Positions 3,225 to 10,568 of a stretch of DNA of 64,000 nt are shown one piece after another. The translations under genes were made by a program, and so were the position numbers. Numbering within the stretch: position 1 is the stretch's first letter; every line of letters starts with the position of its first letter. The DNA is taken from the IMG/VR virus record IMGVR_UViG_3300042389_001027, positions 62,001-126,000 of that record; one strand, 5' to 3'. Below the pieces are notes generated by a model that saw only the letters and a list, made by a program, of their open reading frames with translations, was not told where the DNA came from and did no database searches. The stretch comes from a virus.

Positions 3225-5105
3225 ATGGCTGCTGTTGAGCGATACGGAACTCCAAGTCCAGTCCAGAGGGCTGGCAATGACTCGGTATATGGTAGTGGCG
3301 CATTAGGTAATGTCACCCTAAGTGCTGGGGAAACAGTCATGTCGCAAGATATGTACTACAACAATCTCACTGTCCCATTTGGCTCGTTTCTGAACACGAA
3401 TGGGTTTCGTGTTTTTGTTAAAAATACTTTGACATTAAATGGAATTATAGGCATTGCTACTAGTTCTGGTGTTCTTGCTCTTGAACCATCTCCTGTTGCT
3501 ACTGGGACAGTTGCTGGCACTACATCAAGTAACGCTATTACATACCGCATTGGCGGAAAAAGCGGTGGTGCGACAGCGGATGGTACCAGTCTTATCCCCA
3601 CAGGAATTTTATATTCGCTGGATGTGGCTACAAAAGGTTTGTTTATTGACCCAAACGACAACCAGCCCAAACGGCTAATTGGCGGTGCTGCTGGTACAAC
3701 TGGCAGTCAGGGAACAACCTTCCCTGCGCTGACCAATACCGATACATGGTCTGGTAAAACTGCTCCGACATCATGGCCGAGCCAATCAGGGAACCCTGGT
3801 TCTGCAGGGAACCCTGGTGGCGCTGGAGGAGCAGGTGGAGCAGGGAACCTAGGTGGTCTAGGAGGGCACCCCCCACATGCTCATACTGTTGGAGTGCCTG
3901 GTGGTAGAGGGAATGCAGGCAACTCTGGAAATCCTGGTGGCGCAGGAAATCCTGGTGGCGCAGGGAACCCGGGCAACCCCGGCACTGTTGGCAACCCCGG
4001 CACGGCGACTGGTGCCAATCCGAGTGTTGGTGGCGCTGGGGGTTCGGGCGGGCAAGGTGGCGGGGTAGTCCTAGTTGTAGCAAAAACTATTACTGGAACT
4101 GGAACTATTCTTTCATTAGGTATTTCTGGAACATCGGGTAGTTCTGGGACTACTGGTACTGGAGGTACGGCAGGGAACCCTGGTTCTGCTGGCAATACTG
4201 GCACCACTGGTACTACAGGCAATTTTGGTACTCTAGGCACTACAGGTAATCCTGGCAATACGATGCCTCATCGGTCAGACAATCCCACCCACGCCCATCA
4301 CCGAGTTTCATCTGGTCATACAAATTCACAGAACGGCGGCGGAGGGGGCGGTCATGATTCGGAACCAGGCAACGGTCCGCAAGTTCACCACGCTCACCTG
4401 AGTCAAGATAGGCACGAGCAGCATCGTGGTTCGCGACTTCATTTCCATATGCCTCACGGCGGGAACACTGTAGGTCATAACCCGCCTGTCGTTACAAGCA
4501 ACAAGCCATTAACGCACGGTCCTGGAACCGTTTTTCACAATCCTGCACACATTCACCATGCAGGACATACTCACAACCCTCACCATGATGCACCCCATGG
4601 GCATAACCACCATACGCATAACGACCATGGTGGCAGTTCTCACGGTCCTCACCATTTTGGTCCTCATCACGGTGCAGCAAACGGGCAAGGCAATGGCGGG
4701 TCGCACGCCTACTACTATTGGGCTGGACACCACGGAATTCAGCATGCGGGCGGTCCTCATTACCATGCCGCTGCAGGCAAACATATTGGCTCCCCGCACA
4801 CGCATACCCACTATGCGGGGGGTGCTGGAGGTACTGGAGGTGCTGCGGGTAATGCTGGCGCTCCGGGGACTGGCGGTTTGGGGGGAAATGCTGGAGTCGC
4901 TGGACCAGGTGGACTTGCAGCACCCGCACAACCGCAGGGCGGCACAGGTAAACGCGGTGGGGCGGGTGGAGGAGGCGGTATCATTGTGGTTACCGACAAC
5001 ACATCGCTAGGAAGTGTTAATACTAGTGTCGCTGCTGGTTTGACTGCTGACTCAGATTTCAATACAGCCTCATCAGGGTTTGTATACTTAATTCAGAACA
5101 CTTAG
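3225..5105 (+). CDS. Collagen-like, histidine-rich tail fibre
   Basis: A 626-residue protein. Residues 1-100 share the fibre module of the preceding gene. Residues about 190-290 and 300-345 are Gly-X-X repeats of collagen type (GNPGGAGNPG, GTTGTTGNFG). Residues about 346-532 form a low-complexity block with roughly 45 histidines (HTHNPHHDAPHGHNHH), mixed with Gly, Asn and Pro. A final Gly-rich part (530-590) and a short beta tail finish it. The histidine block could bind metal or be pH-responsive; this is inference. The neighbouring prolyl-hydroxylase-like enzymes make a modified fibre conceivable. Confidence 0.8.
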   Translation: MAAVERYGTPSPVQRAGNDSVYGSGALGNVTLSAGETVMSQDMYYNNLTVPFGSFLNTNGFRVFVKNTLTLNGIIGIATSSGVLALEPSPVATGTVAGTTSSNAITYRIGGKSGGATADGTSLIPTGILYSLDVATKGLFIDPNDNQPKRLIGGAAGTTGSQGTTFPALTNTDTWSGKTAPTSWPSQSGNPGSAGNPGGAGGAGGAGNLGGLGGHPPHAHTVGVPGGRGNAGNSGNPGGAGNPGGAGNPGNPGTVGNPGTATGANPSVGGAGGSGGQGGGVVLVVAKTITGTGTILSLGISGTSGSSGTTGTGGTAGNPGSAGNTGTTGTTGNFGTLGTTGNPGNTMPHRSDNPTHAHHRVSSGHTNSQNGGGGGGHDSEPGNGPQVHHAHLSQDRHEQHRGSRLHFHMPHGGNTVGHNPPVVTSNKPLTHGPGTVFHNPAHIHHAGHTHNPHHDAPHGHNHHTHNDHGGSSHGPHHFGPHHGAANGQGNGGSHAYYYWAGHHGIQHAGGPHYHAAAGKHIGSPHTHTHYAGGAGGTGGAAGNAGAPGTGGLGGNAGVAGPGGLAAPAQPQGGTGKRGGAGGGGGIIVVTDNTSLGSVNTSVAAGLTADSDFNTASSGFVYLIQNT

Positions 5106-5113
5106 GAGACAAA

Positions 5114-5356
5114 ATGCCTTTATTTGATGAAATTGACAAAAAACAGCGGTTGCAGATTCTTCGCGGAACGTATAAATCTTTGGAAATTGAACTTTTTGAA
5201 GTTTTAACGCGCCTTGGAGTTGACGCTGATGAATACGCATTTGGCGAAAATCCTGAATTTGCTGAATCTGTAGATAACTGGAACAAGCGTCGCGTTATTG
5301 AGTTAGAAACAACCTTGGCTACAATTAAGGCAAAAATTGACGCATTGGAAGCATAA
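5114..5356 (+). CDS. Small helical protein of the tail module
   Basis: An 80-residue protein preceded by GGAGAC eight bases before the ATG. It is strongly helical with a C-terminal coiled-coil-like stretch (IELETTLATIKAKIDALEA). It lies between the long fibre and the enzyme island. It may be a fibre chaperone or assembly factor by position; the sequence alone does not show this. Confidence 0.7.
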   Translation: MPLFDEIDKKQRLQILRGTYKSLEIELFEVLTRLGVDADEYAFGENPEFAESVDNWNKRRVIELETTLATIKAKIDALEA

Positions 5357-9067: not shown

Positions 9068-9876
9068 GTTTACGGAAAATTGAAAAGTACAGCGATATCA
9101 AGGTTCCTGAAGGCAAAATTGTTATCGTTCCTTGGGATAATCGTCTTTTAGAACTTCCCCCATACACAAACGATAGGGCTCCTCTTCCTCAGTGGATTAA
9201 GGACGCCCCCACCACACAAGGTTCAATTAGGCGATGTGCGGCGACAATGGATTATGTCTCTTCTGGCATCACAATCCCTGCGTGGACTAATTTTCGCTTC
9301 AATAAAATTGAAGGTGAAGATTCATGGGGTTTTTCTTGTGACCAGTTTGATGGGCATGGAACAAATGGGTTTGAGCATTTCACGAATCAGCCGTTTGCTT
9401 TTGAGCAAACAGGCTCGTGCCCTATGACTAAGGTACGAGCAATGGAGAATGTTGGTTACCCAAAGTTAGTTAACCCATTCAGAATCATTACTGCACCAGG
9501 ATGGTCAACGATGATTTTGCCAGTTCTTTACGAACCATCGCCACATTATTCCGTTTTACCAGGAATCGTGAATACTGACTATTATCATGAATCAAACTGT
9601 GTACTTAATTTGATTGGCAAAGAGTCGTTCACTATTCCATGGGGTGCACCTTTGATGCATCTAATCCCAGTAAAAAGAAGCACGCTTGCGCACAGTGTTG
9701 AATTTCTTGACGAAAGTGCATTCAAGTATGTGATTGGTCGCGGATTTGGTTCTGGTGCCCTGAAACCCACTGGTAATGGCTGGTCTTCTAGCCGTCTTTA
9801 TCGTGCGTACAGATTTAGGCGTGATGCAGAACTTGCTGAAGATAGCAAGAAAACAACGTGGTGGAAAACTAAATGA
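9064..9876 (+). CDS. Hypothetical protein coupled to the halogenase
   Basis: 270 residues starting at a TTG that overlaps the halogenase stop (TTGA); GAGG lies about ten bases upstream. Aromatic-rich, with IPWGAPLMHLIPVKR near residue 200, a pattern (beta strand, G-x-P, then IP-x-R) found in some uncharacterised phage/bacterial proteins. No catalytic motif was identified. The 4-nt overlaps on both sides with enzyme genes point to a shared pathway or substrate-handling role. Confidence 0.75.
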   Translation: MSLRKIEKYSDIKVPEGKIVIVPWDNRLLELPPYTNDRAPLPQWIKDAPTTQGSIRRCAATMDYVSSGITIPAWTNFRFNKIEGEDSWGFSCDQFDGHGTNGFEHFTNQPFAFEQTGSCPMTKVRAMENVGYPKLVNPFRIITAPGWSTMILPVLYEPSPHYSVLPGIVNTDYYHESNCVLNLIGKESFTIPWGAPLMHLIPVKRSTLAHSVEFLDESAFKYVIGRGFGSGALKPTGNGWSSSRLYRAYRFRRDAELAEDSKKTTWWKTK

Positions 9877-10568
9877 TTTTCCCTGCTGGCATCGGTGGCG
9901 GTATCGGTTACAAAGACAATGTTTTAAGTGATGCGCTATGTGCTGACATTGTTGAGTACGCAGAAACGCACAGCAACATGATGTACGAGGGTCCGACTCT
10001 TGGGGGACTCAACAAGCAGATAAAGAATTGCTACGATTTTTCTTTGTCCTATTATAGCGACTATGCAGAAAACGATGAACAACGCAACGAATTAGCAAAT
10101 TTCAACAATCTAGTATTTGACTCTTTTTCGCCTGCGTTAGAAGAATACTGTTCCTATTACGAGGGCTTGGAGCATTGGACAACAAGGTACGACACGGGGT
10201 ATCAGTTTCAAAAATACCCAGCCAACGAAGGGTTTTACAAACCTCATTGTGATGGTGGCGTGTATCTGACAGGCTCCACTGCCACAAGAGTTCTCGGTGT
10301 CGTTATGTACCTAAATACTGTGCCTAAGGGCGGCGGAACTAATTTCCCACTACATGATGTCACTATTGATGCGGTATGCGGACGTATTTCTTTCTTTCCA
10401 GCGAACTTCACTCATCCCCATGCTGGATTGATGCCTCTTTCTTCCCCCAAGTACATCATCAGTACCTTCTGTTACACTTTGCCAACCGCCCCCAGTGTTG
10501 ATGAGGCAGTAAATAAACTTTCCTTGAATTATGTTGAGGAAGTCAGCAAAACAGATGATGAAATCTAA
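9873..10568 (+). CDS. Second 2OG/Fe(II) dioxygenase, prolyl-4-hydroxylase-like
   Basis: 231 residues, starting in an ATGA overlap. The facial triad is visible: H125-C-D127 in FYKPHCDGG, and a distal His at 181/183 in FTHPHAGLMPL, with a 2OG-binding lysine about ten residues later (SPKYIISTF). GVVMYLNTVPKGGGTNFP is typical of the P4H core. It is clearly different in sequence from the dioxygenase at 5760, so the two probably act on different sites. The substrate is unknown. Confidence 0.87.
   Translation: MIFPAGIGGGIGYKDNVLSDALCADIVEYAETHSNMMYEGPTLGGLNKQIKNCYDFSLSYYSDYAENDEQRNELANFNNLVFDSFSPALEEYCSYYEGLEHWTTRYDTGYQFQKYPANEGFYKPHCDGGVYLTGSTATRVLGVVMYLNTVPKGGGTNFPLHDVTIDAVCGRISFFPANFTHPHAGLMPLSSPKYIISTFCYTLPTAPSVDEAVNKLSLNYVEEVSKTDDEI

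Follow-up and report, generated by a model that had tools for sequence, protein, structure and literature searches.

What are a flavin-dependent halogenase and two prolyl 4-hydroxylase (P4H)-like oxygenases doing beside a glycine-rich phage fibre? The question is raised by an island of genes at positions 3225-10568 of the window, the 64,000-nucleotide stretch analysed here, which covers bases 62001-126000 of the 128,618-base IMG/VR virus record IMGVR_UViG_3300042389_001027. The initial annotation of this stretch proposed that the island decorates the fibre encoded at 3225-5105 or, alternatively, makes a small molecule at the end of infection. We consider it probable that the island serves to mature the tail fibre, which its enzymes would modify during assembly. 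The decoration proposal is backed by co-occurrence of the genes across viral contigs, by duplication, inversion and fibre replacement within the cassette and by the adjacency of halogenases and fibre-like proteins in cyanophages; the modification itself is reached by inference, and the collagen repeats on which the proposal had leaned are not constant.

Viral contigs were searched separately with the halogenase, with a dUTPase-fold protein (9064-9876) and with a short paralogue of the fibre; the resulting loci were clustered at 85% identity to obtain non-redundant sets, and neighbouring genes were scored by profiles. The three anchored sets have contigs in common and are not phylogenetically independent. 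Conserved co-occurrence, the absence of which the initial annotation had named as evidence against its proposal, was found throughout: among 43 fibre-anchored loci, the halogenase is present in 39, the P4H in 40 and the dUTPase-fold protein in 41. All 34 loci anchored on the dUTPase-fold protein have the halogenase directly upstream and all 34 have the fibre, with the P4H in 33, and 46 of the 52 halogenase-anchored loci combine the fibre, the P4H and the dUTPase-fold partner. With these genes turning up together at dozens of non-redundant loci in phages, the composition of the island is more than chance.

The association also persists where the locus has been rearranged. The enzymes are inverted and reordered in three loci (L063, L064 and L261), yet still adjoin the fibre, and in another (L210) the entire cassette has undergone tandem duplication, of which L049 shows a part. 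Either copy in L210 comprises a separate Gly-rich fibre along with the small proteins, the P4H, the halogenase and the dUTPase-fold protein. In L044, L052 and L053, an unrelated Gly-rich fibre stands in the fibre's place, accompanied by another 2-oxoglutarate (2OG)-oxygenase-like gene, and the halogenase is kept. When loci with halogenases of 40-65% identity are compared, homologues of the fibre are kept in 66% and of the dUTPase-fold gene in 86% of comparisons, against 3-28% for the flanks beyond 7.5 kb; the short, fast-evolving genes between the fibre and the dUTPase-fold gene score lower than both. The inversion, tandem duplication, fibre swap and flank turnover go beyond what common descent alone explains.

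In the window, the island and the genes immediately 5' of it are laid out as follows.

2157..2516, + strand: small conserved fibre/tail protein (F6), 5' of the fibre pair; family in 17 of 24 representative loci
2516..3223, + strand: short fibre paralogue (F3), identified by alignment; family in 20 of 24 representative loci
3225..5105, + strand: Gly-X-Y/His-rich fibre (F4), proposed substrate; Pfam Collagen 27.3 bits
5114..5356, + strand: small protein of 80 amino acids (F8), in 35 of 43 fibre loci
5360..5779, + strand: protein of 139 amino acids (F7), in 29 of 43 fibre loci
5760..6347, + strand: P4Ha, P4H-like 2OG-Fe(II) oxygenase, HWD...H...K intact; Pfam 2OG-FeII_Oxy_3 43.8 bits
6335..6610, + strand: protein of 91 amino acids (F29), near relatives only (3 loci)
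6610..6837, + strand: protein of 75 amino acids (F26), near relatives only (3 loci)
6834..7580, + strand: Rossmann methyltransferase-like protein (F17), accessory; AlphaFold/Foldseek
7577..9067, + strand: flavin-dependent halogenase, GSGTAG/K79/WIWEIP/E333 intact; Pfam Trp_halogenase 347 bits
9064..9876, + strand: phage-specific dUTPase-fold protein, TTG start; model and Foldseek
9873..10568, + strand: P4Hb, second 2OG-Fe(II) oxygenase, HCD...H...K intact; Pfam 34.6 bits

The open reading frames of 3225-10568 form an unbroken series on the + strand, in which neighbours either overlap by 4 bp or are separated by a short gap, confirming the tightly packed, same-strand gene run described initially, except that ten genes are counted here instead of nine; for P4Ha, an in-frame start further upstream, at 5667, is also possible. 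The description of the island as a late operon is plausible from its location 3' of the terminase, portal, sheath, tube, tape-measure and baseplate genes of a contractile-tail phage. A promoter and terminator scan gave signals at chance level and was uninformative, and a search for near DNA relatives among sequenced phages yielded none.

Alongside the conserved gene content and fibre linkage, the catalytic motifs of the enzymes are intact. The halogenase retains K79 and the WxWxIP motif (WIWEIP here), as had been noted from the letters, and the active-site E333 as well. Both K79 and E333 are kept in 119 of 119 distinct relatives, as are W260 of the WxWxIP motif and the two flanking Gly of the FAD-binding GxGxxG motif (GSGTAG, residues 14-19); W262 is kept in 106 of the 119 and is Phe in the other 13. 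As regards free tryptophan as the substrate, local alignments to PrnA and PyrH end near residue 433, ahead of the amino-acid binding lid, which is suggestive only. In the tree, the island halogenases form one clade (support 99/99). On a human faecal phage contig (L285, MT835646), one flavin halogenase homologue is encoded on each strand, and both branch far away from the aquatic clades.

Both oxygenases exceed the 2OG-FeII_Oxy_3 cut-off of 27 bits, and their intact HxD...H signature, followed in each case by the Lys, bears out the earlier identification of two 2OG/Fe(II) dioxygenases. Across 146 P4H relatives, the catalytic residues are almost invariant (H in 146, D in 143, the distal H in 143 and K/R in 144). 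An expanded cassette was observed around a 1123-amino-acid fibre (L120 10695), with seven P4H-profile matches close by.

The proposed substrate, at 626 amino acids, contains 23% Gly and 48 His, with Gly-X-Y stretches at residues 189-261, 299-346 and 533-586 (the longest run being 16 triplets) and a His-rich centre in which 30 His fall within residues 431-530. It shares the FIB domain with its short paralogue F3, from which the long Gly/His insert is missing. The name collagen-like fibre is apt for this protein, given its Gly-X-Y stretches and a Pfam Collagen match that is marginal, just over the cut-off of 27.2 bits, but does not extend to the family, in which the repeat varies from 0 to 73 triplets per relative. 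Collagen repeats were accordingly rejected as the constant of the system. What is constant across the family is a Gly content of 15-27% together with high His (median 8.4%), and a polyglycine-II bundle would suit the Gly-rich stretches equally well as a triple helix. None of the halogenase-linked fibres has fewer than 6 Tyr or fewer than 8 His.

The placement of proline within the repeats bears on the oxygenases. Collagen-type P4Hs modify the Y-position proline. In the 1225 Gly-X-Y triplets of the fibre family, Pro occupies Y 152 times (12.4%) and X 37 times (3.0%), a bias seen in 41 fibres and reversed in 7 (p=6e-7). This coincidence of bias and expected target supports, short of proof, hydroxylation of the fibre, and the Y-position proline is, on sequence grounds, the best-supported candidate modification step. 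The placement is the opposite of that in ordinary bacterial collagens, which are unhydroxylated and carry Pro at X (19-31%) and Thr at Y (PMC8968730).

The most constant neighbour of the halogenase, overlooked in the initial annotation, is the gene at 9064-9876. Its 270-amino-acid product was modelled with a pLDDT of 89.3, and the top Foldseek matches of the model are dUTPases without exception, at E 1e-4 with a TMt of roughly 0.4-0.65 and covering part of the protein only. The GVIDxxY motif, which holds the catalytic Asp of dUTPases, was aligned by eye; 111 of 115 relatives have His or Asn in place of the Asp, and the product is for this reason probably not a dUTPase. DUF6065 (PF19541) was considered for this protein and rejected, with no Pfam match for the protein itself and a best E of 0.19 among 21 relatives; the protein is better described by a dUTPase fold that lacks the catalytic Asp. 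The family was found in 197 stretches of viral contigs and in only three contigs of metagenome-assembled genomes (84,980 species genomes searched), so that it is phage-specific as far as searched and there is no cellular context to draw on. This partner is a clear candidate for substrate delivery.

The remaining products of the island are less constant. The 248-amino-acid product of 6834-7580 (AlphaFold pLDDT 77.5) matches O-methyltransferases in Foldseek (best E 1e-8, TM 0.5-0.6), in keeping with the possible methyltransferase of the initial annotation as regards its Rossmann fold. It has no match over any cut-off in Pfam, PHROG or NCBIfam, and the S-adenosylmethionine (SAM) motif I, GxGxG, is not evident: SVPYAI follows the first strand, and relatives are not Gly-rich there. 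Being present at only 8 of 43 fibre loci, it is a minor accessory. F7 has no family match and weak PDB matches only.

Searches with divergent fibres uncovered a sister group of cassettes that have the P4H and mostly two dUTPase-fold copies but no halogenase. Their fibres contain 0-3.7% His and 4-10.9% Tyr, and the median compositions of sister and halogenase-bearing fibres are 2.8% versus 8.4% for His and 8.0% versus 3.0% for Tyr. A PF11397 glycosyltransferase is present in 8 of 10 halogenase-less records (L138 at 9328-10560, L290, L291, L293, L295, L300, L304 and L140) and in 0 of 20 halogenase-bearing ones; PF11397 includes the enzyme that adds GlcNAc to the hydroxyproline of Skp1. The cassettes with PF11397 place two dUTPase-fold proteins beside a Tyr/Pro-rich, His-poor fibre. 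One of them also holds an FkbM-type methyltransferase (Pfam Methyltransf_21; L140 12053-12766). A rank test of halogenase presence against fibre His gives p about 4e-9; the statistical claim that the halogenase predicts His content was dropped because the halogenase-less fibres form a single clade (support 92/77 in the tree) and hence represent one event. The contrast between the two groups is consistent with a matching of enzyme set to fibre chemistry, short of proof.

A similar arrangement is found in cultured cyanophages. CPUG_00131 of phage Syn10 is VirX1, matching the sequence of PDB entry 6QGM identically over 530 amino acids with the exception of the first residue. It and a second halogenase are immediately preceded by three Gly-rich proteins with Gly contents of 22-35%, of which two have His-rich patches; the Gly-rich proteins of Syn10 include CPUG_00134, CPUG_00135 and CPUG_00137. 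On the 3' side of the halogenases come a distant dUTPase-fold homologue and then many 2OG-oxygenase-like genes. The halogenases of P-TIM40, S-WAM1, S-SZBM1, P-RSM6 and Sf-CH11 are likewise located behind Gly-rich fibre-like proteins. The Gly content of these halogenase-adjacent proteins in cyanophages is 20-36%, and most of the loci include 2OG oxygenases. The VirX1 clade is far from the island clade in the tree.

We propose that fibre and enzymes would be produced jointly, late in infection. Within the low-complexity Gly/His-rich part of the fibre, side chains would be hydroxylated by the 2OG-Fe(II) oxygenases, the most probable target being the Y-position proline of Gly-X-Y, and the halogenase would place Cl, Br or I on Tyr, His or Trp of the fibre, with the dUTPase-fold protein acting as a putative non-catalytic adaptor beside or with it; F8 and F7 could be fibre chaperones, and F7 possibly an adaptor. 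The modified fibre would then enter the virion, where it might be stiffened, cross-linked, loaded with metal or altered in adhesion. The identity of the substrate, the modified residues, the order of steps and the benefit are those that we infer. A chemical analogy is offered by a Gly/His-rich worm-jaw protein, in which Tyr and His are halogenated.

Several alternatives were weighed against fibre maturation. The small-molecule option of the initial annotation is kept as rather unlikely: the enzymes would make a halogenated, hydroxylated compound (antibiotic, signal or toxin), and the fibre would adjoin them merely as a fellow late gene. Trp-type halogenases classically use small indoles, the island includes a methyltransferase-fold protein, and the halogenase cluster of cyanophage S-SSM6a was interpreted as a secondary-metabolite pathway (PMC7824862); yet no scaffold-building enzyme, whether nonribosomal peptide synthetase, polyketide synthase, ligase or aminotransferase, was recognised in the island by Pfam, PHROG or NCBIfam, duplicated, inverted and fibre-swapped versions of the cassette all keep the gene set beside a fibre, and fibre composition and enzyme set covary. 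It is also quite unlikely, in our estimate, that only the oxygenases act on the fibre while the halogenase serves another target (host surface, free indole or host signal) and shares the operon for timing only. The halogenase is as constant beside the fibre as the P4H (39 versus 40 of the 43 loci), has been duplicated along with the fibre and adjoins Gly-rich fibres in cyanophages too, which speaks against a separate target; in favour of one, P4Hs persist in the halogenase-less clade, the Y-proline bias bears on the hydroxylases only and the fibre has no fixed Trp target. Mere synteny of one phage lineage, in which unrelated late genes that do not work together simply keep a frozen order, would accommodate the monophyly of the island halogenases and the origin of all loci from related contigs. 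We regard it as highly improbable, given that the flanking genes turn over while the island persists, that the association survives inversion, reordering, duplication and fibre swap, and that the VirX1 clade shows it with other fibres.

Other observations weigh against fibre maturation. With the island halogenases and the halogenase-less fibres each confined to a single clade, common descent accounts for much of the co-occurrence, and the difference in His and Tyr amounts to one evolutionary change. No Gly-rich fibre adjoins the halogenases of P-SSM2, S-PM2, S-RIM44, S-MbCM6 and S-B64, and S-RIM4 has a lone dUTPase-fold homologue near metabolic genes; fibre adjacency is thus no rule for phage halogenases as a whole. 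Trp is absent from 3 of 75 halogenase-linked fibres, for which reason Trp was rejected as the sole halogenation target. No flavin reductase was identified, and none was searched for.

Viral halogenases are plentiful in aquatic phages, and the conserved tie to a Gly/His-rich fibre supplies a concrete, testable candidate for their natural substrate. Phage isolates have next to no members of the fibre family or of F7, so the island itself is not yet open to study in culture, and the candidate substrate extends to VirX1, whose phage can be cultured. If fibre maturation is correct, phages would chemically tailor their adhesion proteins after translation, with effects on host recognition and evolution, and such cassettes would be a source of enzymes for site-specific protein halogenation. 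A wider claim, which we hold tentatively as quite possible though short of probable, is that phages halogenate and hydroxylate their own adhesion fibres by means of a dedicated cassette, that this is the natural job of fibre-adjacent viral halogenases including VirX1, and that sister cassettes swap halogenation for glycosylation of hydroxyproline or Ser/Thr. On this wider claim, the fibre would become the first virion protein known to be halogenated, and phage halogenases would for the first time be assigned a protein substrate.

Further 3' in the window, 12632-14605 encodes a PA14 and fn3 protein with a signal-like N terminus and a long Glu/Thr-rich region; members of its family occur close to the island at 11 of 24 representative loci. 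The product of 14747-16180 has a signal-like N-terminal segment, a Thr/Pro-rich stretch and a C-terminal LPDTG-like sorting signal with a membrane helix, resembling a phage-encoded sortase substrate, and 16504-17307 encodes a VanY carboxypeptidase with a peptidoglycan-binding domain, a probable endolysin.

In the open literature that was searched, no phage cassette of halogenase and hydroxylase linked to fibres had been described. Phage halogenases are already known, as is viral modification of the virus's own collagen-like proteins: mimivirus encodes such proteins together with a 2OG enzyme and a glycosyltransferase that decorate them (PMC9546862, PMC8968730). The mimivirus system differs in that its lysyl hydroxylase/glucosyltransferase enzymes carry out lysine hydroxylation and glycosylation in an amoebal giant virus and not on tail fibres, with no reported halogenase or dUTPase-fold partner. 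Cyanophage S-SSM6a (Iyer et al. 2021) likewise combines a halogenase and a 2OG oxygenase in a single cluster, but one that includes carbamoyltransferase and sugar genes, was interpreted as a secondary-metabolite or polysaccharide pathway (PMC7824862) and has its nearest Gly-rich open reading frame 6.8 kb off. The sister cassettes, in pairing a P4H with PF11397, recall the Skp1 pathway, in which a P4H is followed by a PF11397-type GlcNAc-transferase acting on hydroxyproline. That pathway is eukaryotic and serves cytosolic oxygen sensing, whereas the sister cassettes adjoin a phage fibre. The Skp1 glycan is placed on hydroxyproline in PMC11570480. VirX1 belongs to a distant clade (about 31% identity), its neighbouring Gly-rich fibres are of another family, and it has been assayed only on small substrates described as unnatural, among which its large open active site takes bulky phenols and heterocycles (PMC8407142). 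It is nonetheless likewise a Trp-type halogenase encoded by a phage and shares the fold family of the island halogenase, which matches 6QGM at E 4.5e-48. Its setting resembles that of the island as well, with Gly-rich fibre-like proteins on the 5' side and, close by, 2OG oxygenases and a gp43-like distant homologue of the dUTPase-fold protein.

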